A stretch of 64,000 nt of DNA from contig NC_013407.1 of NCBI RefSeq assembly GCF_000024625.1, positions 806,001 to 870,000 on the forward strand. The letters are read 5' to 3'. The notes under the pieces are model-generated. The model did not search any database. It saw only the letters and a list, made by a program, of their open reading frames with translations, and was not told where the DNA came from. Shown piece by piece: positions 27,679 through 40,269 of the stretch (positions within the stretch are counted from its first letter, which is position 1; the number at the start of each line of letters is the position of its first letter). Source of the stretch: Methanocaldococcus vulcanius M7. Its GTDB lineage: Archaea > AGJL01 > Methanococci > Methanococcales > Methanocaldococcaceae. A program made the translations under genes and the position numbers.

Positions 27679-28118
27679 ATGATCCACCTCCTCTTTCCAA
27701 AATTAAAAATTAATTCAAAGAGTTGAGTCGTTATTTGATTATCAGCTACTAACCTTAATATCTCAAAACTATTGTAATTGTCTCTAAAAATATATACCTT
27801 GCATATATTTGCTTTTTTATTTCATGATCATAGGTCCTTTTACATCTAAACACTAAAATATAAAGATGTCATATCGATAATGTTAAAATAACTGCATGGT
27901 AAATAACATAGGTATTGATTTATTTTAAAACTCAGGATTTTAGTTGAGTCGTTAATGCTTTAAGTTTATTGATGGACTAATTAAAATCCAAAATGTTAAG
28001 TTTATAAATACAAAATGGCTATAAATGAATGAGTTATAGTATGTCAGATAATAGTATTTCAGATTGATAATAGGTTTGCAATTACCATCATTCATCTGAG
28101 TATCTAAGTGTGATAATT
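27679..28118. promoter_or_regulatory. Divergent bioA-polD control region with direct repeats
   Basis: This 440-bp region holds no gene. A 13-bp direct repeat AGTTGAGTCGTTA occurs at 27721-27733 and 27942-27954. An inverted repeat, AAATATAT (27788-27795) with ATATATTT (27803-27810), overlaps the TATA-like stretch for bioA on the minus strand. For the polymerase gene TTTATAAATA at 28001-28010 is a good TATA box; transcripts would begin near 28035 with a leader of about 85 nt. Confidence 0.45.
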
Positions 28119-31100
28119 ATGATTCATGTTGCATGTTCAGAAAATATGAGAAAATATTTTGAAAATATTGTAAAAGAAGTCGAAAAACTTTACAAAATAG
28201 CAGAAGAGTGTAGAAGTAGAGGGTTTGATCCTACTGATGAAGTAGAGATCCCCTTAGCTGTTGATATGGCAGATAGGGTTGAAGGATTAGTTGGACCAAA
28301 AGGTGTGGCAAAACGAATAAGGGAATTGGTAAAAGAACTTGGAAAAGAACCTGCCTCTTTAGAGATCGCTAAGGAGATCGTTGAGGGAAAATTTGGAAAT
28401 TTTGAAAAGGAAAAAAAAGCGGAACAGGCAGTTAGAACTGCACTCGCGGTTTTAACAGAGGGGATTGTCGCTGCTCCACTCGAAGGAATCGCAGATGTTA
28501 AGATCAAAAAAAATCCAGATGGAACTGAATATTTAGCAATCTATTATGCAGGGCCAATAAGAAGTGCAGGAGGAACTGCTCAGGCCCTATCCGTTTTAGT
28601 TGGGGACTTTGTAAGAAAAGCTATGAATTTAGATAAATACAAACCAACGGAGGATGAGATCGAGAGATACGTGGAGGAGGTTGAGTTATATCAATCAGAA
28701 GTTGGAAGTTTTCAATACAGTCCAACCGCTGATGAAATTAGAACTGCTATAAGAAATATTCCCATAGAGATTACAGGAGAAGCAACAGATAACGTTGAAG
28801 TTTCGGGACATAGAGATCTTCCGAGAGTTGAGACAAATCAAATAAGGGGAGGAGCTTTATTGGTCTTAGTTGAAGGGGTTTTGCTAAAAGCACCAAAAAT
28901 ATTAAGACATGTTGATAAATTGGGAATAGAAGGATGGGATTGGCTTAAAGATCTAAAGGGTAAAAAAGATGATAATAAATCAGAGGAGAAAGTGGAAGAT
29001 GAAGAGATAGATGAAGAGAACGATGAAGAATTAGAAGGATACTGGAGAGATGTTAATATTGAAGCAAATAAAAAGTTTATAAGTGAAGTTATTGCTGGAA
29101 GACCTGTTTTTGCCCATCCTTCGAAGGTTGGTGGATTTAGGTTGAGATATGGAAGGAGTAGAAATACCGGCTTTGCTACGCAAGGTTTTCATCCTGCATT
29201 AATGTATTTAGTCGATGAATTTATGGCAGTTGGAACTCAACTTAAAACAGAACGACCAGGAAAAGCAACATGTGTTGTGCCAGTTGATAGTATTGAGCCA
29301 CCAATTGTTCGTTTGAAAAATGGAGATGTTGTTAGAGTTGAAACAGCCGAAAAAGCAATTGAATTGAGAAATAGAGTTGATGAAATTTTATTTTTGGGAG
29401 ACGTTTTAGTTAATTATGGTGATTTTTTAGAGAATAACCATCCTCTCCTACCAAGTTGTTGGTGTGAGGAGTGGTATGAACAACTCCTAAAATCAAAAAA
29501 TATCTCCTACAATGAAGAGTTTATAGGAAACCCAAGACCAGATGAGGCAGTGAAATTTGCCTTAGAGACAAAGACCCCTCTCCATCCAAGATTTACATAC
29601 CACTGGCACGATGTTAGTAAAGAGGAGATAATACTACTAAGAAACTGGCTTTTAAAAGGAAAAGAAGATAATTTTGAAGGAAAAAAAGTTTGGATTGTAG
29701 ATTTAGAGACAGAGGAAGATAAAAAGGCAAAGAGAGTTTTAGAGTTAATTGGTTGCTGTCATTTAGTTAGAAATAAAAAGGTTGTAATTGAGGAGTATTA
29801 TCCATTACTCTACTCTCTTGGGTTTGATGTTGAGAATAAAAAGGATTTAGTTGAAAATATAGAAGAAACTGCAAACTCTGCCAAAAATTCTATCCATTTC
29901 GTAAACTTGTTATCTCCTTTTGAAGTTAGAAGAAACACCTATGTTTATGTCGGAGCAAGAATGGGAAGACCAGAGAAAGCTGCCCCAAGAAAGATGAAGC
30001 CCCCAGTTAATGGTTTATTCCCAATAGGAAACGCTGGAGGACAAGTTAGGTTAATAAACAAAGCAGTTGAGGAAAACAACACTGATGATATTGATGTTTC
30101 GTATGCAGTATGTCCGAAGTGTGAAAAAATTTCTTTATATAGAGTTTGCCCATTTTGCGGAACTAAGGTGGAGTTAAATAAGTTTGGAAAGATAAAAGCT
30201 CCTCTAAAAGATTATTGGTATAATGCGTTAAAAAGGTTGGGAATAAATAAGCCAGGAGATGTTAAGTGTATTAAGGGGATGACATCAAAGCAGAAGATCG
30301 TTGAGCCATTAGAAAAAGCAATTTTAAGGGCAATGAATGAGGTTTATGTCTTTAAGGATGGAACTACAAGATTTGACTGCACAGATGTTCCAATAACTCA
30401 CTTTAAACCAAGTGAAATAAATGTTAGTGTAGAAAAACTTAAAGAACTCGGATATGAGAAGGATATACACGGTAGAGAATTAGTAGATGAGGATCAGGTG
30501 TTAGAACTCAAACCTCAGGATGTTATAATCCCAGAAAACTGTGCAGAGTATTTTGTGAAGGTTGCAAACTTTATAGATGAGTTGTTAGAAAAACTCTATA
30601 AGATGGATAGGTTCTATAACGTAAAAGAGAAAAAGGATTTAATTGGACATTTAGTTATCGGAATGGCTCCTCACACATCTGCAGGAATGGTTGGAAGAAT
30701 AATTGGTTATACTGAGGCAAGAGTTGGTTATGCCCATCCTTACTTCCACGCTGCAAAGAGAAGAAACTGTTTCCCAGGAGATACAAGGATTTTAGTAAAT
30801 ATAGATGGAAATGTTGAGAGAATTACATTAAAAGAACTATACGAGTTGTTTGATGAAAAATACGAGGTCTTTGAAAACGATGCATTCGTCAGAAAAAAAC
30901 CATTAAATAATAAAAACATTAAGGTTTATTCCTTTAATCCAGAACATAAAAACGTCGTGTTAACAGATATTGAGGAAGTTATAAAGTTAGAATCTCCAAA
31001 TCATCAAATAAAGATTACGTTAGATGGAAATAGAGAGTTTATAACAACTCACGACCACTCAGTTATGGTTTATGAAAATGGCAAATTTATCAAAAAATTA

Positions 31101-32948
31101 GCTATGGATGTTAAAGAAGGGGACTTAATGCTAATTCCAAAGGTTGATTTTGAAGAAGATAATATAGAGGAGTTCGACTTATTAAAAGAATTCTCAAAAG
31201 AAGAGTTTAAAGATCTGTGGAGTATTTTAAGAGTTATAGGAATTAGTAATTGGATTAAAGAAAATATTGGTAAAGAATTAATTAGAGAGTTGAAGTTAGA
31301 TGAATATTTAAAATATGATACAATACCTTTGGATAAACTTCTTATATTATTAGAAAAATCAAATTTAACAATTGATGAGGTTCCAAAAAACTGTTATATT
31401 GCAGTTAAAGATGATAAAACGAATATTAATAGGATTATTAAAATTGAACCCTTATTAAAGCTTATTGGCTACTATCTCTCTGAAGGATATGCAAGAGAAT
31501 CAAAAACTGTCTATCAAATAAACTTCTCAAATTCAGAAGAAGAAATTAGAGAAAATATTAAAAAATCCATAAAAGAGGCATTTGGAGGTATAAACGTATA
31601 TGAGAGTAAAGAAGAAGGAAAATTGAGCTTATCATCAAGAGTTGTTTATTTATTCTTCACAAGAGTTTTAAAAATTGGTAAAAATGCAAAATCAAAGAGA
31701 ATTCCAAGCTTTATCTTTAAGTTGCCAAAGGAGAAGGTTAAGTTAATGTTATCTGCCTACTTTGATGTAGAGGGAAGCATTTCCAATACAAAACCGAGAA
31801 TTTCTGTTTATAGCATAAACAAAACGTTGTTGGAGGATATTGACTTACTTCTAAATAGATTTGGAATTAAAACTTACTGGATAGATGATAAAAATGTGGA
31901 GGGAGGAGGAAAAGAAAATCCAAAATTAGCTGTTTATGCTCTAAATATATCTGGATATTATTGTGATATATTCTTTAAAGAGATTGGATTTTTCTTAAAA
32001 AGAAAGCAGATGATCTATGAATTACATAAAAATAAAGTAAGAAAAAATGATTCAACAGAACATAACTTTGGTTGGATTGTAAAAGTTAAAAAGGTTGAAA
32101 TAATAAAGTCGAATGATGAATTTATCTATACCTTAAATGCTAAGAAGTATCACAATGTAATTATAAACGAGAATATTCAAACATTCCAATGTGATGGAGA
32201 TGAGGACAGTTTCTTCCTACTTTTAGATGCATTCTTAAACTTCTCTAAAAAATTCCTGCCCGATAAAAGAGGAGGGCAGATGGATGCTCCGTTGGTCTTA
32301 ACAACCATATTAGATCCGAAAGAGGTCGATGGAGAAGTTCACAACATGGATACGATGTGGAGTTATCCATTAGAGTTTTATGAAAAAACCTTAGAGATGC
32401 CTTCTCCAAAAGATGTTAAGGATATTATGGAGACGGTTGAGGATAGGTTAGGAAAGCCAGAGCAGTATGAGGGAATTGGCTATACTCATGAGACATCGAG
32501 AGTTGATTTGGGACCGAAGGTTTGTGCCTATAAAACACTTGGTTCGATGCTGGAAAAAACCGCCTCTCAGTTACTTGTTGCGAAAAAAATTAGGGCTACG
32601 GATGAAAAAGATGTTGCTGAGAAAGTTATTCAATCCCACTTTATTCCTGATTTAATAGGTAATTTAAGAGCTTTTTCGAGACAGTCAGTTAGATGCAAGT
32701 GTGGAGCAAAATTCAGAAGGGTTCCATTAAGAGGAAAATGCCCAAAGTGTGGATCAAAGCTTATTCTTACAGTTTCAAAAGGAGCTGTTGAAAAATATAT
32801 GGACGTTGCTGAAAAAATGGCGGAGCAGTATGATGTAAACAACTATATAAAACAGCGACTAAAAATTATCAGAGAGGGAATAAACTCAATATTTGAGAAT
32901 GATAAAAGTAAGCAGGTAAAGTTAAGTGATTTCTTTAAGATTGGATAA
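28119..32948 (+). CDS. polC: DNA polymerase D large subunit (DP2) with intein
   Basis: This 1,609-residue precursor holds the catalytic subunit of archaeal replicative polymerase D. The DP2 parts are residues 1-883 and 1358-1609, about 1,135 in total, normal for the family. Visible features are [10 protein letters not shown] at the start, GAMGRP-like [18 protein letters not shown], zinc-binding [17 protein letters not shown] and the final CKCGAKF to CPKCGSK. The catalytic CDGDEDS is split from its preceding RRN by the intein, so splicing is needed for activity. ATG 28119 was chosen because AGTGTGATA precedes it. The small subunit DP1 is not in the window. Confidence 0.97.
30768..32189 (+). 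mobile_element. Intein with LAGLIDADG homing endonuclease in PolD DP2
   Basis: This in-frame insert encodes 474 residues, DP2 positions 884-1357. Block A is CFPGDTRIL with catalytic Cys1, and block B is [11 protein letters not shown]. Two endonuclease motifs are [11 protein letters not shown] and [12 protein letters not shown]. The C-terminal end is ENIQTFQ followed by extein Cys+1, so it ends in Gln rather than Asn and the penultimate His is replaced by Phe. An intein at this same active-site position with a C-terminal Gln is known from Pyrococcus PolII, so splicing is plausible. The two acidic endonuclease residues are present, so homing may be active. Confidence 0.93.
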
Positions 32949-35730: not shown

Positions 35731-35830
35731 TCTTCGAGCGTAGCGAGGAGAGTAATGAAAACCGTTAGGTTTTCATCTGAATTCATTACCGCCCTAAGCA
35801 GAGTTTCTTAGCGACAACTAATGTAAATAA
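35731..35830 (+). promoter_or_regulatory. Structured 5' leader with competing hairpins
   Basis: Within the predicted leader ATGAAAACC (35755-35763) pairs with GGTTTTCAT (35768-35776) around GTTA. TAATGAA (35753-35759) can instead pair with TTCATTA (35782-35788). The two pairings share bases and exclude each other in part. A TGAAT segment follows the hairpin as it also does after the last hairpin of the upstream island. Mutually exclusive stems before metal-related genes suggest a switch, but no ligand domain was recognised. Confidence 0.35.
35789..35807 (+). repeat. Right, decayed copy of GC-rich end motif
   Basis: CCGCCCTAAGCAGAGTTTC matches the motif at 35481-35502 with a 3-bp deletion and a substitution in the stem. 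It lies 37 bp before the DUF364 start codon. Confidence 0.4.
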
Positions 35831-35844
35831 ATTTGGTGAACGTT

Positions 35845-36552
35845 ATGGTTGATGTTAGAGGGTTTTTAAAAGATCTTGTTGAAAAGAATAGGTTATTGGA
35901 TGAGGTTGTGGAGATAAAGATTTCTGATACTAAGTTGGATACTACTCGAATTAAGGATTATCCTTTGATGAGTGGGAAGGAGATTTTGTTGAGGGCTGAT
36001 TTTAAAGGATGTTATGGGGATGCCTTCACAGATAAACCCGTTGAATTTAAAGGAACTGTAAGGGAGCTTTTGGATAAAGGAAGTAGGGCAGAGGTTGTGG
36101 CAACGTTAAATGCAGTTATGAGGTATCTTGGGTTAGTGGATAGAACAGTCCACTGCTCGGGGGATGAGCCAGAGAAGTGTGCAAAAGAGTTGGTTAAATA
36201 TTTAAAAGAATTAAATCCGAAGAAGATCGGAGTTGTTGGATTACAACCAGCATTTGTTAAAGAGATTGTAGATACCTTTGGAGCGGAAAATGTATTAGTA
36301 AGTGATTTAAATCCTGAAAATATTGGAAAAATAAAGTATGGAGTTAGAATAATCCACGGAAAATACAATGAAGAAGTAATAAAAAACTCAGATATTGTTT
36401 TAGCAACTGGCTCAACCATCGCAAACGGAACTTTCGAAGAAATCTGGAACCTCGCTAAAAAACACAACAAAAAAATAATATTCTACGGCACAACAATAGC
36501 AGGAATCTCCAAAATATTAAAAGTCGAAAGATTCTGCAAACTCGGGAGATAA
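35845..36552 (+). CDS. DUF364 (DUF4213) putative heavy-metal chelation protein
   Basis: This 235-residue protein has the two-part DUF4213/DUF364 architecture. The first half contains GCYGDAFTDKPVEF and NAVMRYLGLVDRTVHC; the second half contains a Rossmann-like VGVVGLQPAFV, VSDLNPENIG, and the conserved VLATGSTIANGTFEEI. Family members are thought to bind or process transition-metal species and often lie near molybdate/tungstate or nitrogenase genes. ATG 35845 follows GGTGAACG. The gene ends 2 bp before an ABC ATPase of the molybdate/tungstate kind, so a role in Mo/W handling is inferred. Confidence 0.75.
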   Translation: MVDVRGFLKDLVEKNRLLDEVVEIKISDTKLDTTRIKDYPLMSGKEILLRADFKGCYGDAFTDKPVEFKGTVRELLDKGSRAEVVATLNAVMRYLGLVDRTVHCSGDEPEKCAKELVKYLKELNPKKIGVVGLQPAFVKEIVDTFGAENVLVSDLNPENIGKIKYGVRIIHGKYNEEVIKNSDIVLATGSTIANGTFEEIWNLAKKHNKKIIFYGTTIAGISKILKVERFCKLGR

Positions 36553-36554
36553 AC

Positions 36555-37598
36555 ATGCTAAAAATTGTAAATTTAGAAAAGAAACTTGCATATTTTACTC
36601 TAAAAATTGACGATCTTGAGGTATACGAAAATGATTACTTCGTAGTTTTAGGATCGAGTGGTAGTGGGAAAACCACACTTCTGGAGATATTAGCAGGATT
36701 TAGAAAGGCAGATATGGGAAGTATTTACTTGGATGGAGAGGATATAACAAATAAGCCAATAAGCGATAGAAAAATAGTAATGTGCCATGGTAAATATTTA
36801 TTCCCTCATTTAAGCGTTAAAGATAACATCGGCATCGGAATAAGGAATAAAAAAATCAGAGAGGAGAAGGTAAAAGAAATAAGCAAAATGTTGGGGATAA
36901 GTCATCTTTTAAATAGGAATCCAAAAACACTCAGTAGGGGTGAACAACAGAGGGTTGCACTGGCAAGAGCACTTGTAGTTAATCCAAAGATCATACTATT
37001 AGACGAGCCATTAAGTGCATTAGATAAATTAACTCATGAAAATCTAATTATTGAATTGAAAAAAATTCATGAAAGTTCAGATTTAACATTTATTCACGTG
37101 ACTCATGATTTTATCGAGGCAATTGCACTTGCTAAACACATGGCAATAATTAAGGATGGAAATATAGAACAATTTGGAGATGTAAATGAAATAATAAATA
37201 CTCCAAAAAATGAATTTGTAGCGAGATTCGTAGGATATAAAAACTTTTTAAAAGGAAAAATAAAAAAAGATGGGAAGAAATACATATTCAAAGGAGACCT
37301 TGACATTATTATAGACAAACCACAAAAAGAAGGAAATGCAATTTTAGCCATAAGACCGGAAGATATAATGCTCGTAGGAGATGGAGGTTGCAGATATCAC
37401 TACAACAAGGAAAATATATTTGACGCAGAAATTATAGATGTTTATCCTTTAAGCTTGTCAACTGTTAGAGCAATTCTTGACGTGAATGGAATTACCTTAA
37501 TTTGTGAAGTTATAAGATCTAAGGCAAATAGAATGGGGCTTAAAAAAGATATGAATGTTAAAATTTCAATATCTTCTTCTGTCATCATTAGGAAATAA
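36555..37598 (+). CDS. ABC transporter ATPase, molybdate/tungstate type (WtpC/ModC-like)
   Basis: This 347-residue ATPase has Walker A GSSGSGKTT, a Q-loop VMCHGKYLFPHLSV, the signature LSRGEQQRVALARAL, Walker B ILLDEPLSALD and switch HVTHDFIEA. After residue 230 it has a C-terminal extension of MOP/TOBE type with LAIRPEDIML, found in molybdate, tungstate, spermidine and sugar importers. Adjacency to DUF364 favours Mo/W. No permease or binding-protein gene lies nearby, so it must work with components encoded elsewhere or is an orphan. CYS-free Q-loop replacement (CHGKYL in place of VFQ) is unusual. Confidence 0.8.
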   Translation: MLKIVNLEKKLAYFTLKIDDLEVYENDYFVVLGSSGSGKTTLLEILAGFRKADMGSIYLDGEDITNKPISDRKIVMCHGKYLFPHLSVKDNIGIGIRNKKIREEKVKEISKMLGISHLLNRNPKTLSRGEQQRVALARALVVNPKIILLDEPLSALDKLTHENLIIELKKIHESSDLTFIHVTHDFIEAIALAKHMAIIKDGNIEQFGDVNEIINTPKNEFVARFVGYKNFLKGKIKKDGKKYIFKGDLDIIIDKPQKEGNAILAIRPEDIMLVGDGGCRYHYNKENIFDAEIIDVYPLSLSTVRAILDVNGITLICEVIRSKANRMGLKKDMNVKISISSSVIIRK

Positions 37599-37609
37599 CT
37601 TTCCCTATT

Positions 37610-37624
37610 CCGAAATATTTATAT
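37610..37624 (+). promoter_or_regulatory. Strong BRE-TATA promoter of hacB
   Basis: CCGAAATATTTATAT matches the strong archaeal BRE plus TATA pattern. The same pattern, CCGAAAGATTTATATAG at 38262-38278, precedes the two-gene operon downstream. Confidence 0.65.
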
Positions 37625-37676
37625 GCAAAAAATAGGAATGTTACTAAAAGACATACATAAATTGAAGGGTGAAAGT

Positions 37677-38165
37677 ATGATTAGAGGAAGAGTTCATAAG
37701 TTTGGGGATGATGTTGATACTGATGCAATAATCCCAGGACCTTATTTAAAAACAACTGATCCTTATGAATTAGCGAGATATTGTATGTATGGAATTGATA
37801 AAGAGTTTTCAAAAAAGGTTAAAGAGGGAGATGTCATTGTTGCGGGGGAAAACTTTGGTTGTGGTTCAAGTAGAGAACAGGCGGTTATAGCAATAAAGTA
37901 TTGTGGCATTAAAGCAGTTATAGCAAAAAGTTTTGCAAGGATATTTTATAGAAATGCGATAAACATTGGACTATTTCCAATAATCGCAAATACAGACGAA
38001 TTAGAAGACAATGATATAGTTGAAATCGACTTAGATAATGAGAAGATAACTGCAAATGAAAATCTTATCCTTGATTGTAAGGTGCCAAAAGGTGTGGAAA
38101 GAAAAATTTTAGATGCAGAAGGCCTAATAAATTATTTTCACATTAGAAACAACAAGTCAAGGTAA
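37677..38165 (+). CDS. hacB: Methanogen homoaconitase small subunit HacB
   Basis: This 162-residue protein forms the swivel domain of an aconitase-type hydratase. It shows [36 protein letters not shown] and [11 protein letters not shown]. The YLKT loop resembles the YLRT of homoaconitases rather than the YLVY of isopropylmalate isomerases, so it should act on cis-homoaconitate-type substrates in the 2-oxosuberate route to coenzyme B. It works with a large subunit (HacA/LeuC-like) that is not in the window. ATG 37677 follows AAGGGTGAAA; the upstream in-frame ATG at 37623 lies inside the TATA region. Confidence 0.85.
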
Positions 38166-38261
38166 ATCATTTTACTACTTTTATTTTACTTAATCATAGC
38201 ACAACGTTTAACAATAGCTTCATCAATATTTTAAATCTATAAGGAAGTAAGATTCCTAATA

Positions 38262-38278
38262 CCGAAAGATTTATATAG
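38262..38278 (+). promoter_or_regulatory. Promoter of the NifE-like operon
   Basis: CCGAAAGATTTATATAG is a strong BRE plus TATA element. A start near 38304 would leave about 26 nt before the first ATG, which includes the GAGGTTG ribosome site. Confidence 0.6.
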
Positions 38279-38329
38279 ATCTAATAAAAATTTTAATAAG
38301 GTGATAACTATAAAAAAGAGGTTGAAAAA

Positions 38330-38965
38330 ATGAAAGTCCTATTCTTAGGAAAAAAACTCGATAATATTGACTCTTACGACGTAGATGAGTGCTTATTTCT
38401 TCCATTTAACAAAATAGATGTGGCAAAATATGATCTATCTATTATCTATCTCCCATTATTCTTTAATGACTTAACATCATATTCAGCAAATCAGTCAAGT
38501 ATCTCCACAATATTAAAAGATATAAAAGTTAAAGAGGTCTTAGAAAGCAAAGATGAACCAAAAGTTGTCGTTATTGATCCTTACTTTAAAAATATATCAA
38601 AAGGGAGGATTTTAGAACATTATTTAATGAAACATCTAACCAGAGATGGTTTTGTGGTTAGATGCAAAGATGGAGATGATATCAAAGTCAAAGATGATAA
38701 ATTTTCAAGATATGCTGATTTAATTAGAAAATACTCACACATATATGAGATTAAAGACGAAGAAGGGAAGTTAGGGATAGTTGATACTCTAACACTAATT
38801 TGTGATTATGAACAATGGAATTATGAGCCAATTATTGAGAACAGTAAGGGAGAGGTTTTGGGAGTTAGAGTTTTCAAAAATGGTTCTTTATATATTTTGC
38901 ATCCTCCGAGTGAAGATGTTAACGACTACAAAAAATTAATTGAAGTGTTAAAGGAGATAGTATGA
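38330..38965 (+). CDS. Unknown 211-residue protein coupled to NifE-like gene
   Basis: No known family was recognised. The 211 residues have no signal or membrane segment and show no cysteine cluster (three scattered cysteines only). The start MKVLFLGKKLDNI and a later VVVIDPYFKNI look like alternating strands and helices, so a small alpha/beta domain is likely; WNYEPIIENSKGEVLGVRVF near the end could be a beta hairpin. Its stop overlaps the start of the NifE-like gene by 4 bp (ATGA), so the two are translated as a pair and probably form a complex. The ATG follows GAGGTTG. Confidence 0.65.
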   Translation: MKVLFLGKKLDNIDSYDVDECLFLPFNKIDVAKYDLSIIYLPLFFNDLTSYSANQSSISTILKDIKVKEVLESKDEPKVVVIDPYFKNISKGRILEHYLMKHLTRDGFVVRCKDGDDIKVKDDKFSRYADLIRKYSHIYEIKDEEGKLGIVDTLTLICDYEQWNYEPIIENSKGEVLGVRVFKNGSLYILHPPSEDVNDYKKLIEVLKEIV

Positions 38966-40269
38966 ATGAAAATGCTGTAAAAGTCCTTCCATATAAAATT
39001 ACATTAAAAAGGGATGGGCTTCCGCTATCAGATAAGAAATCATCTCCAGGGGTTGTTAATCAAAGAAGTTGTCCATATTATGGAGCAAGATGGATTTTAG
39101 CCCCTATAAAAAATACACTTCATATTATACACTCTCCAATTGGTTGTGCTTTTTATGGGCAGAACGTTAGGAAAAAAAGATATACTATAATCTCAACAGA
39201 TATACAGGAAGCAGATGTTGTTTATGGAGGAGAAAAAAAGCTATACAATACAATAATTGAATCCCATAAAGAATTAGGAGGAGAGGCAATATTTGTTTAT
39301 ATAACTTGCGTTCCTGCATTGATTGGAGATAATATAGAAAGGATTAGTAGAGATGCTGAAGATATATTGAGAATTCCAGTTATTCCAGTATTCTGTCCTG
39401 GATTTTGCGGTTATCATCAATCAAAGGGTCATGAAATTGCAATGAAAGCTTTATTTAGATTAATTAAAGAAGGAGAGTTTAAGAAAGAATTTAAAGACAA
39501 ATTAGTGGTCAACATAATTGGGGAATATAACGTATGTAATGAAACAAAGGTTATTAAAGATTTGTTGAATAAATTAGGTATTGAGGTTATAGCAACATTT
39601 ACAGGAGATTGTTCAGTAGAGGATGTAAAAAATTCAAAGAATGCTAAGCTAAATCTTGTCCATTGCAGAAGAACTGGAAAATATATAGCAAACTATATGG
39701 AAGATAGATATGATATTCCACAATTAAAGGTTTCTTTTATTGGATTAAGAAATACAAAAAAATCATTAATGGATATTGCAAAATTCTTTGGAATTGAAGA
39801 TAGAGCAAGAGATGTTATAAAGGAAGAGTTTGAGAAAATTAAAGATGAATTAGAATTTTATATAAAAAAGTTGAAAGGGAAAAAAGTAGGAATGTTCATG
39901 GGAGCTTCTAAAATAGGAATACTAACCTCTGCATTTAAAGATTTGGGCATGGAGGTTGTTTCAGTTGGCTCACAGTTTGGTAGTTTTGAGGATTACTTAG
40001 ATGCTTATATAAATGTAGATGACAACACCATCTTAGTTGATGATGCCTCAAAGATTGATTTAGAGCTAATATTTAAGCACAAAAAACCAGATATATTTGT
40101 TGGCGGAACTAAGGAGAAATATATGGCGTTAAAATTTGGAATTCCATTTCTATCATTCCCTCAGGACTTTTATCCATTCACTGGATTTATAGGATTTTTA
40201 AACTTTGCAAGAGAGGTTTATAAAGCCATATATCATCCAATTTGGAGGATGATTGAGTTTAAATACTAA
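38962..40269 (+). CDS. Nitrogenase component-1-like protein (NifE/NifD family), orphan
   Basis: This 435-residue protein is related to NifD/NifE. Cysteines C37 (RSCPYYGA), C62 (SPIGCAFYG) and C116 (ITCVPALIGD) match the three cluster ligands of component 1, and TDIQEADVVYGGEKKL is a NifE-like block. C235 in LNLVHCRRTGKYI matches the position of the cofactor Cys275 of NifD. The histidine of the NifD cofactor site is not found: the corresponding segment reads FLSFPQDFYPFTGFIG, closer to NifE. It lacks CfbD features (HPRPS N-terminus). No NifK/NifN partner is nearby. Substrate unknown; a scaffold or reductase for a metal cluster or cofactor is inferred. Confidence 0.85.
   Translation: MNENAVKVLPYKITLKRDGLPLSDKKSSPGVVNQRSCPYYGARWILAPIKNTLHIIHSPIGCAFYGQNVRKKRYTIISTDIQEADVVYGGEKKLYNTIIESHKELGGEAIFVYITCVPALIGDNIERISRDAEDILRIPVIPVFCPGFCGYHQSKGHEIAMKALFRLIKEGEFKKEFKDKLVVNIIGEYNVCNETKVIKDLLNKLGIEVIATFTGDCSVEDVKNSKNAKLNLVHCRRTGKYIANYMEDRYDIPQLKVSFIGLRNTKKSLMDIAKFFGIEDRARDVIKEEFEKIKDELEFYIKKLKGKKVGMFMGASKIGILTSAFKDLGMEVVSVGSQFGSFEDYLDAYINVDDNTILVDDASKIDLELIFKHKKPDIFVGGTKEKYMALKFGIPFLSFPQDFYPFTGFIGFLNFAREVYKAIYHPIWRMIEFKY

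Follow-up and report, generated by a model that had tools for sequence, protein, structure and literature searches.

The window analysed here is a 64-kb stretch (G000:C1:806001-870000) of an assembly of 1,761,737 bases in 3 contigs. Two open reading frames follow each other on its plus strand: hp4 (38330-38965), which encodes a 211-aa protein without a known family, and nifE (38962-40269), which encodes a 435-aa protein of the type referred to below as hp4-linked NifE. The stop codon of the first and the start codon of the second share the letters ATGA, an overlap of 4 bp, and both frames stand where a first-pass annotation of the sequence had placed them, with the lengths it gave. With 332 bits against PF00148 (cut-off 28.6), the longer frame cannot be a product of chance. 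Directly upstream of hp4 lies hacB (37677-38165, plus strand), a second gene for a homoaconitase small subunit, whose product reads PYLKT where the other copy has PYLRT (HacB_Meth 286.3 bits, cut-off 230). Elsewhere in the window, at 28110-32948, a 1612-aa ORF for an archaeal DNA polymerase large subunit appears by eye to be interrupted by an intein.

An NrpR-type operator, GGAAGTAAGATTCC (GGAA-N6-TTCC, letters which we take to be the NrpR consensus), is found at 38243-38256 on the plus strand, 87 bp upstream of hp4, and is followed by the TATA box of the hp4-nifE operon, TTTATATA, at 38270-38277 (plus strand). A second NrpR-type site, GGAAATAACTTTCC (37591-37604, plus strand), lies 86 bp before the probable start codon of hacB, and an identical site precedes hacB in genome G007. 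Exact GGAA-N6-TTCC sites number 4 in the 64-kb window vs 1.32 expected. Among the six genomes with hp4, that of the window included, five have an exact site upstream of hp4 and G008 has only a variant; the same TATA octamer stands 53-65 bp upstream of hp4 in 5/6 and was not found there in G003. An exact site also precedes nifH in each of the five hp4 genomes in which nifH was read. Each apparent nif operon of Methanocaldococcus FS406-22 is preceded by an NrpR operator, as Lie et al. describe (PMC8809328).

It was in FS406-22 that Lie et al. 2022 named the small gene hp4, in an operon with the 4-nt overlap, an NrpR operator and no nifN (PMC8809328); the hp names used here follow theirs by position and size. 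The pair had been put forward in the first-pass annotation as an undescribed nitrogenase-like system, but it is the hp4-nifE operon of that publication, and thus already described, neither orphan nor new. According to the legend of its Fig. 1, all diazotrophs known with hp4 are shown there, and the word 'vulcanius' does not occur in its main text (PMC8809328). NifE without NifN in this clade had been noted earlier, in the account of Garcia et al. 2020 (PMC7216921). Among the papers searched, only Lie et al. 2022 came up for Hp4 and nifE in methanogens.

Among the NCBIfam models run on the large protein, an alpha-subunit subfamily scores slightly higher (412.8 bits) than NifE TIGR01283 (407.5 bits, below the curated cut-off of 505.1), and the identity to canonical NifE and NifD is 31-42%. 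NifD was rejected as an identity (TIGR01282 351.4 bits vs a cut-off of 653.55; cofactor His442 absent). CfbD was rejected too, as had been claimed before: TIGR03282 gives 43.7 bits vs a cut-off of 268.4, and a separate, shorter PF00148 frame of 359 aa, which we infer to be CfbD, is located at G000:C1:701504. In sequence comparison with the large protein, NifD chains of known structure often score above those of NifE. Its AlphaFold2 model has a pLDDT of 83.9, and the fold search with this model could not tell NifE from NifD; the best 50 structural matches listed were all catalytic alpha chains. NifE is the name used in the literature; judged by the NCBI cut-off, the protein is a divergent NifE type.

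The cysteines C37, C62, C116 and C235, reported earlier as kept, are invariant in all six sequences and align with the O-cluster cysteines Cys37/62/124 and the L-cluster Cys250, respectively. The absence of the cofactor histidine was also correctly noted: the NifD column of His442 holds P400, and the next column holds Q401, which borders a gap and is, by this alignment, the equivalent of Gln419 and the second L-cluster ligand beside C235; the Gln is common to the Rhizobium and Methylococcus NifE. R70 is retained and matches the canonical NifE column, and K317 is Lys as in canonical NifE, where most NifD carry Arg. As a point against a pure NifE, the protein also retains Q153/H157, a Q/H pair of the NifD type; canonical NifE has Lys in the Q153 column, and its Rhizobium and Methylococcus rows have Asn in the H157 column. 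In Azotobacter vinelandii NifE, Arg70, Lys357, Gln419, Cys37/62/124 and Cys250 are described as holding or surrounding the clusters (PMC13031127). By our own mapping, Lys357 would correspond to K317.

The position of hp4-linked NifE was without resolution in a tree of 59 rows, in which long branches met; for this reason the analysis was rerun with 31 alpha-subunit rows, leaving out E_Nvulg, vE_Nostoc and the beta subunits. In the 31-row tree, the six hp4-linked proteins form one clade (100/100), which is sister to four canonical NifE (88/89), and a group of 14 NifD and one VnfD excludes them (80/84). The tree thus favours canonical NifE for the large protein, though not decisively, and AU tests excluded no grouping of the hp4 type (p was 0.12 for all NifE, 0.13 for Methanothermococcus-type NifE and 0.07 for NifD). 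The NifE of G022, G023, G028 and G033, genomes that are presumably Methanothermococcus-like, falls outside canonical NifE (AU p 0.03), though its gene stands beside that of NifN (L110-L113).

The distribution of the pair was surveyed in 36 Methanococci genomes, a number given by phylum-level and order-level searches alike. Hp4 is present in 6/36 (G000, G003, G007, G008, G034 and G035), a result repeated with a profile, and hp4-linked NifE occurs in the same six, never one without the other; that the two genes belong together, as first suggested, is therefore borne out by every genome having either of them. NifN, called as a strong TIGR01285 match other than NifK, is present in 11/36 (G014-G017, G022, G023, G028-G031 and G033). 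No genome has both Hp4 and NifN (Fisher p 8e-5, kinship ignored), and 19 have neither. In the six Hp4 genomes, the TIGR01285 matches are to NifK or are weak ones to component-1 proteins, and none is NifN; in G008, which is 86% complete, it has no match at all, not even NifK, and no nifD or nifK was found there despite hp4-nifE.

In the genome of the window, PF00148 matches in four places: the hp4-linked nifE, NifD, NifK and the 359-aa frame. A cluster nifH-nifI1-nifI2-nifD-nifK-hp1-hp2 occupies roughly 1,059.4-1,064.7 kb (L041 6404-11670), with nifK at about 1,062.6-1,064.0 kb, and the hp4-nifE pair at 844.3-846.3 kb is about 213 kb away from nifHI1I2DK. The large protein is consequently no orphan, and the earlier statement that it has no NifK or NifN partner stands for NifN (TIGR01285 finds only NifK in the genome), while for NifK it applies to the window and fails for the genome. 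A nifB homologue elsewhere in the genome scores 273 bits, vs a cut-off of 343.65 that is reached by none of the 36 genomes. Placement within a characterised NifE clade, with a nif cluster elsewhere, had been named as the outcome that would speak against the first-pass reading, and this is largely what was found: the cluster is there, and the placement with canonical NifE has moderate support (88/89). All in all, that interpretation is partly supported.

The pair and nifHDK stand beside each other in G007, G035 and G003, and in the draft genome G034 they lie on different contigs. The order in G007 is DUF364, ABC ATPase, hacB, nifH, I1, I2, D, K, hp1, hp2, hp3, ferredoxin, hp4, nifE. Window positions 35828-38166 and 38225-40265 align with stretches of G007 that stand 6.0 kb apart (L042 1855-4197 and 10226-12256), so the segment from nifH to ferredoxin is missing between hacB and hp4 here. 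The DUF364 gene occurs twice in the window genome in opposite orientation, at window 35834-36556 and at L041 2993-3715 (99.6% over 723 bp, with some 214 kb between the copies); since one copy is by hp4-nifE and the other near nifH, the duplicate suggests how the nif cluster was split. In G001 (L050 5161-5327; C1 at about 727.2 kb), the gene after DUF364 is a fusion in which the ABC ATPase contributes its first codons and nifE its last 44. This nifE remnant is 89% identical at the protein level, and the aligned flanks overlap by 7 bases; by alignment with G007, the scar marks the deletion of some 9.5 kb, in which the whole nif cluster was lost. G034 and G035 carry a further component-1-like pair, with a NifH-like protein behind it (L048 4238-7797, L049 4468-8009), adjoining genes that are by eye ABC-transporter-like and methyltransferase-like, and similar pairs occur in G022 and G033. 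One and the same gene, of 198-212 aa and metallo-beta-lactamase-like by eye, stands before nifH in the window genome (L041 5530-6126) and beside the Lys26 hacB in G035 (L120 2982-3620).

The small protein was described from the beginning as unlike anything recognised, and the searches agree: no credible match was found in Pfam, NCBIfam, PHROGs or PDB sequences, and none on plasmids. The scan of genome contigs with narrow peptide patterns gave one locus, on a MAG contig, with the same length and match place as that of G008. Six Hp4 sequences are thus at hand, the other five 65-83% identical to that of the window, and C21 is their sole invariant cysteine. Against NifN, NifD/E and NifX profiles, the Hp4 profile, which is shallow (Neff 1.5), found nothing, with an hhalign probability of 0.1 for NifN. 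The AlphaFold2 model from 6 sequences has a mean pLDDT of 37.5, so no structural inference is drawn from it.

Our main reading, to which we assign a probability of about 75%, is that the pair constitutes the hp4-nifE operon, under nitrogen control, of a Mo-nitrogenase system that has no NifN and in which NifE is the scaffold for FeMo-cofactor and is assisted by Hp4. At the sequence level, the operator and TATA box, the overlap, the kept scaffold ligands, the lost NifD histidine, nifHI1I2DK and a nifB homologue elsewhere and the absence of nifN are all in place. In the proposed mechanism, NifB would pass an [8Fe-9S-C] cluster to NifE, which would hold it via C235 and, more weakly, Q401 during the addition of Mo and homocitrate by NifH, and NifE would then hand the finished cofactor to apo-NifDK. 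Hp4 would act with NifE, either partly in the place of NifN or by aiding NifE assembly. NifN Cys44 adjoins a [4Fe-4S] cluster in A. vinelandii (PMC13031127), and Hp4 C21 could possibly lie next to such a cluster, although this is a guess. In FS406-22, according to Lie et al., a deletion of hp4 that spared nifE slowed growth on N2 and was complemented, and a deletion of hp4 together with the nifE start slowed it as well; the defect was seen on N2 and not on ammonium, and it was partial, as growth on N2 was not abolished (PMC8809328). Since these mutants still fix nitrogen, Hp4, and possibly NifE, are not essential. This weighs against the main reading, as do the NifE score below the cut-off, the NifD-like Q153/H157, the sequence and structure searches that favour NifD or catalytic alpha chains, the AU result for NifD, and G008, where hp4-nifE was found without nifD/K.

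Lie et al. themselves proposed that NifE forms the scaffold with NifK, a NifN homologue (PMC8809328), in which case Hp4 would be only a chaperone or adaptor for the exchange; NifK is the only beta-type subunit found in the genome, NifN being absent, and Hp4 is without similarity to NifN. We regard this arrangement as unlikely, and as the most credible of the rivals. A little less credible is that NifDK matures its own cofactor, as reported for Roseiflexus, whose NifDK needs no NifEN in vitro (PMC11573651), so that NifE and Hp4 would be auxiliaries that only speed delivery. The hp4 mutants of FS406-22 are leaky and still grow on N2, which agrees with self-maturation; however, hp4-nifE is kept under its own operator, and the metal-ligand residues of NifE are invariant in 6 genomes, as expected of a protein that handles clusters. 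NifE alone might also be a homodimeric or homotetrameric scaffold, as proposed by Garcia et al. 2020 (PMC7216921), with another task for Hp4; this we consider improbable, given the strict co-occurrence of Hp4 and NifE, the 4-bp overlap, and the effect of the nifE-sparing hp4 deletion, which slowed growth and was complemented (PMC8809328). The original idea, taken as a nitrogenase-like reductase that works on its own and has no part in N2 fixation, can draw on the divergence from canonical NifE and NifD (31-42% identity), but it is hardly tenable against the nif linkage, the operator, the absence from every genome without nif genes and the published phenotype on N2 and not on ammonium (PMC8809328).

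The hacB gene upstream may be a newer story than hp4-nifE itself. Two HacB copies over the cut-off occur in 4/36 genomes (G000, G007, G034 and G035), all of them hp4 carriers (p 2.5e-4, uncorrected), and in all four PYLKT stands in the extra copy and PYLRT in its counterpart. Over a core of roughly 180-360 bp, the copies of any one genome share 97-100% DNA identity (in the window genome, one base differs in the first 360), which suggests gene conversion between them, with the K/R difference nonetheless kept. Across the Methanococci, Lys at this position (residue 26) is found in 13/15 nif+ vs 0/16 nif- genomes; these 31 genomes with data are what remained of 33 with a pycA row after G031 and G032, without HacB over the cut-off, were dropped. 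Genomes without that row were left out: G026, in which no HacB exceeds the cut-off, G008, which has R and hp4, and the 64% complete G027, which has K and in which no nif genes were found. When G008 and G027 are included, K/R is 13/3 in nif+ and 1/16 in nif- genomes, a p of 1.3e-5 for a trait chosen after the data were seen and with few independent lineages; only 3 independent pairs lie on supported branches (sign test p 0.25).

Residue 26 reportedly governs specificity in the Methanocaldococcus jannaschii subunit MJ1271, for which R26K is said to have been made in the laboratory. Single-copy Lys26 genomes must still make coenzyme B, so Lys26 does not abolish the enzyme; we infer that Lys26 HacB may spare homocitrate. 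In the papers searched, no nif link of HacB residue 26 came up. One could go further and see hacB-hp4-nifE as a nitrogen-controlled cofactor module: Hp4 would replace NifN beside NifE, with Cys21 by a [4Fe-4S] cluster, and the HacB paralogue, held at Lys26 in the face of recurrent gene conversion, would lower homoaconitase flux and so spare homocitrate for FeMo-co where homocitrate is made only as a coenzyme B intermediate; nitrogen-fixing methanogens with a single HacB would have made the same R26K change in it. We hold this extended scheme to be doubtful. Through the Lys/Arg pattern of HacB, a connection of coenzyme B synthesis with the homocitrate supply of nitrogenase becomes open to test.

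The completion of FeMo-cofactor without NifN bears on the origin of nitrogen fixation and on minimal nif gene sets for engineering. To the published operon, the present analysis adds the mutual exclusion of Hp4 and NifN in 17/17 Methanococci genomes that carry a NifE-type gene linked to nif (Hp4 in 6, NifN in 11), a NifE that has scaffold ligands yet NifD-like Q/H residues, and one invariant, testable cysteine in Hp4.

Compared with the hp4-nifE operon published for FS406-22, the locus has the same two genes, 4-bp overlap, operator and TATA box, with no nifN and with nifB elsewhere. G007 has the layout published for FS406-22, and its Hp4 and NifE are 83% and 86% identical to those of the window; in G007, however, the pair comes directly after nifHI1I2DK-hp1-hp2-hp3-fd, whereas here about 213 kb separate it from nifHDK. 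With the canonical NifE of NifEN (A. vinelandii, and the Methanococcus-type NifE of G014-G017), hp4-linked NifE shares the positions of the O- and L-cluster ligands, the scaffold Gln (present in two bacterial NifE rows) and the Lys; it differs in having no NifN, in an identity of 31-42%, in its NifD-like Q153/H157 and in scoring below the TIGR01283 cut-off. NifD of the same genome is alike in fold, in the three cluster cysteines, the cofactor Cys and the Q/H pair, but hp4-linked NifE is 37% identical to it, is without the cofactor His, has Lys and not Arg at 317 and has no adjoining NifK. The NifE of G022, G023, G028 and G033 belongs to another lineage (35-37% identity), with NifN and without Hp4; there, the NifE-NifN genes follow nifK and an hp1-like gene, and the NifDK are 71-80% identical to those of the window genome. 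Two different maturation gene sets thus serve closely related NifDK.
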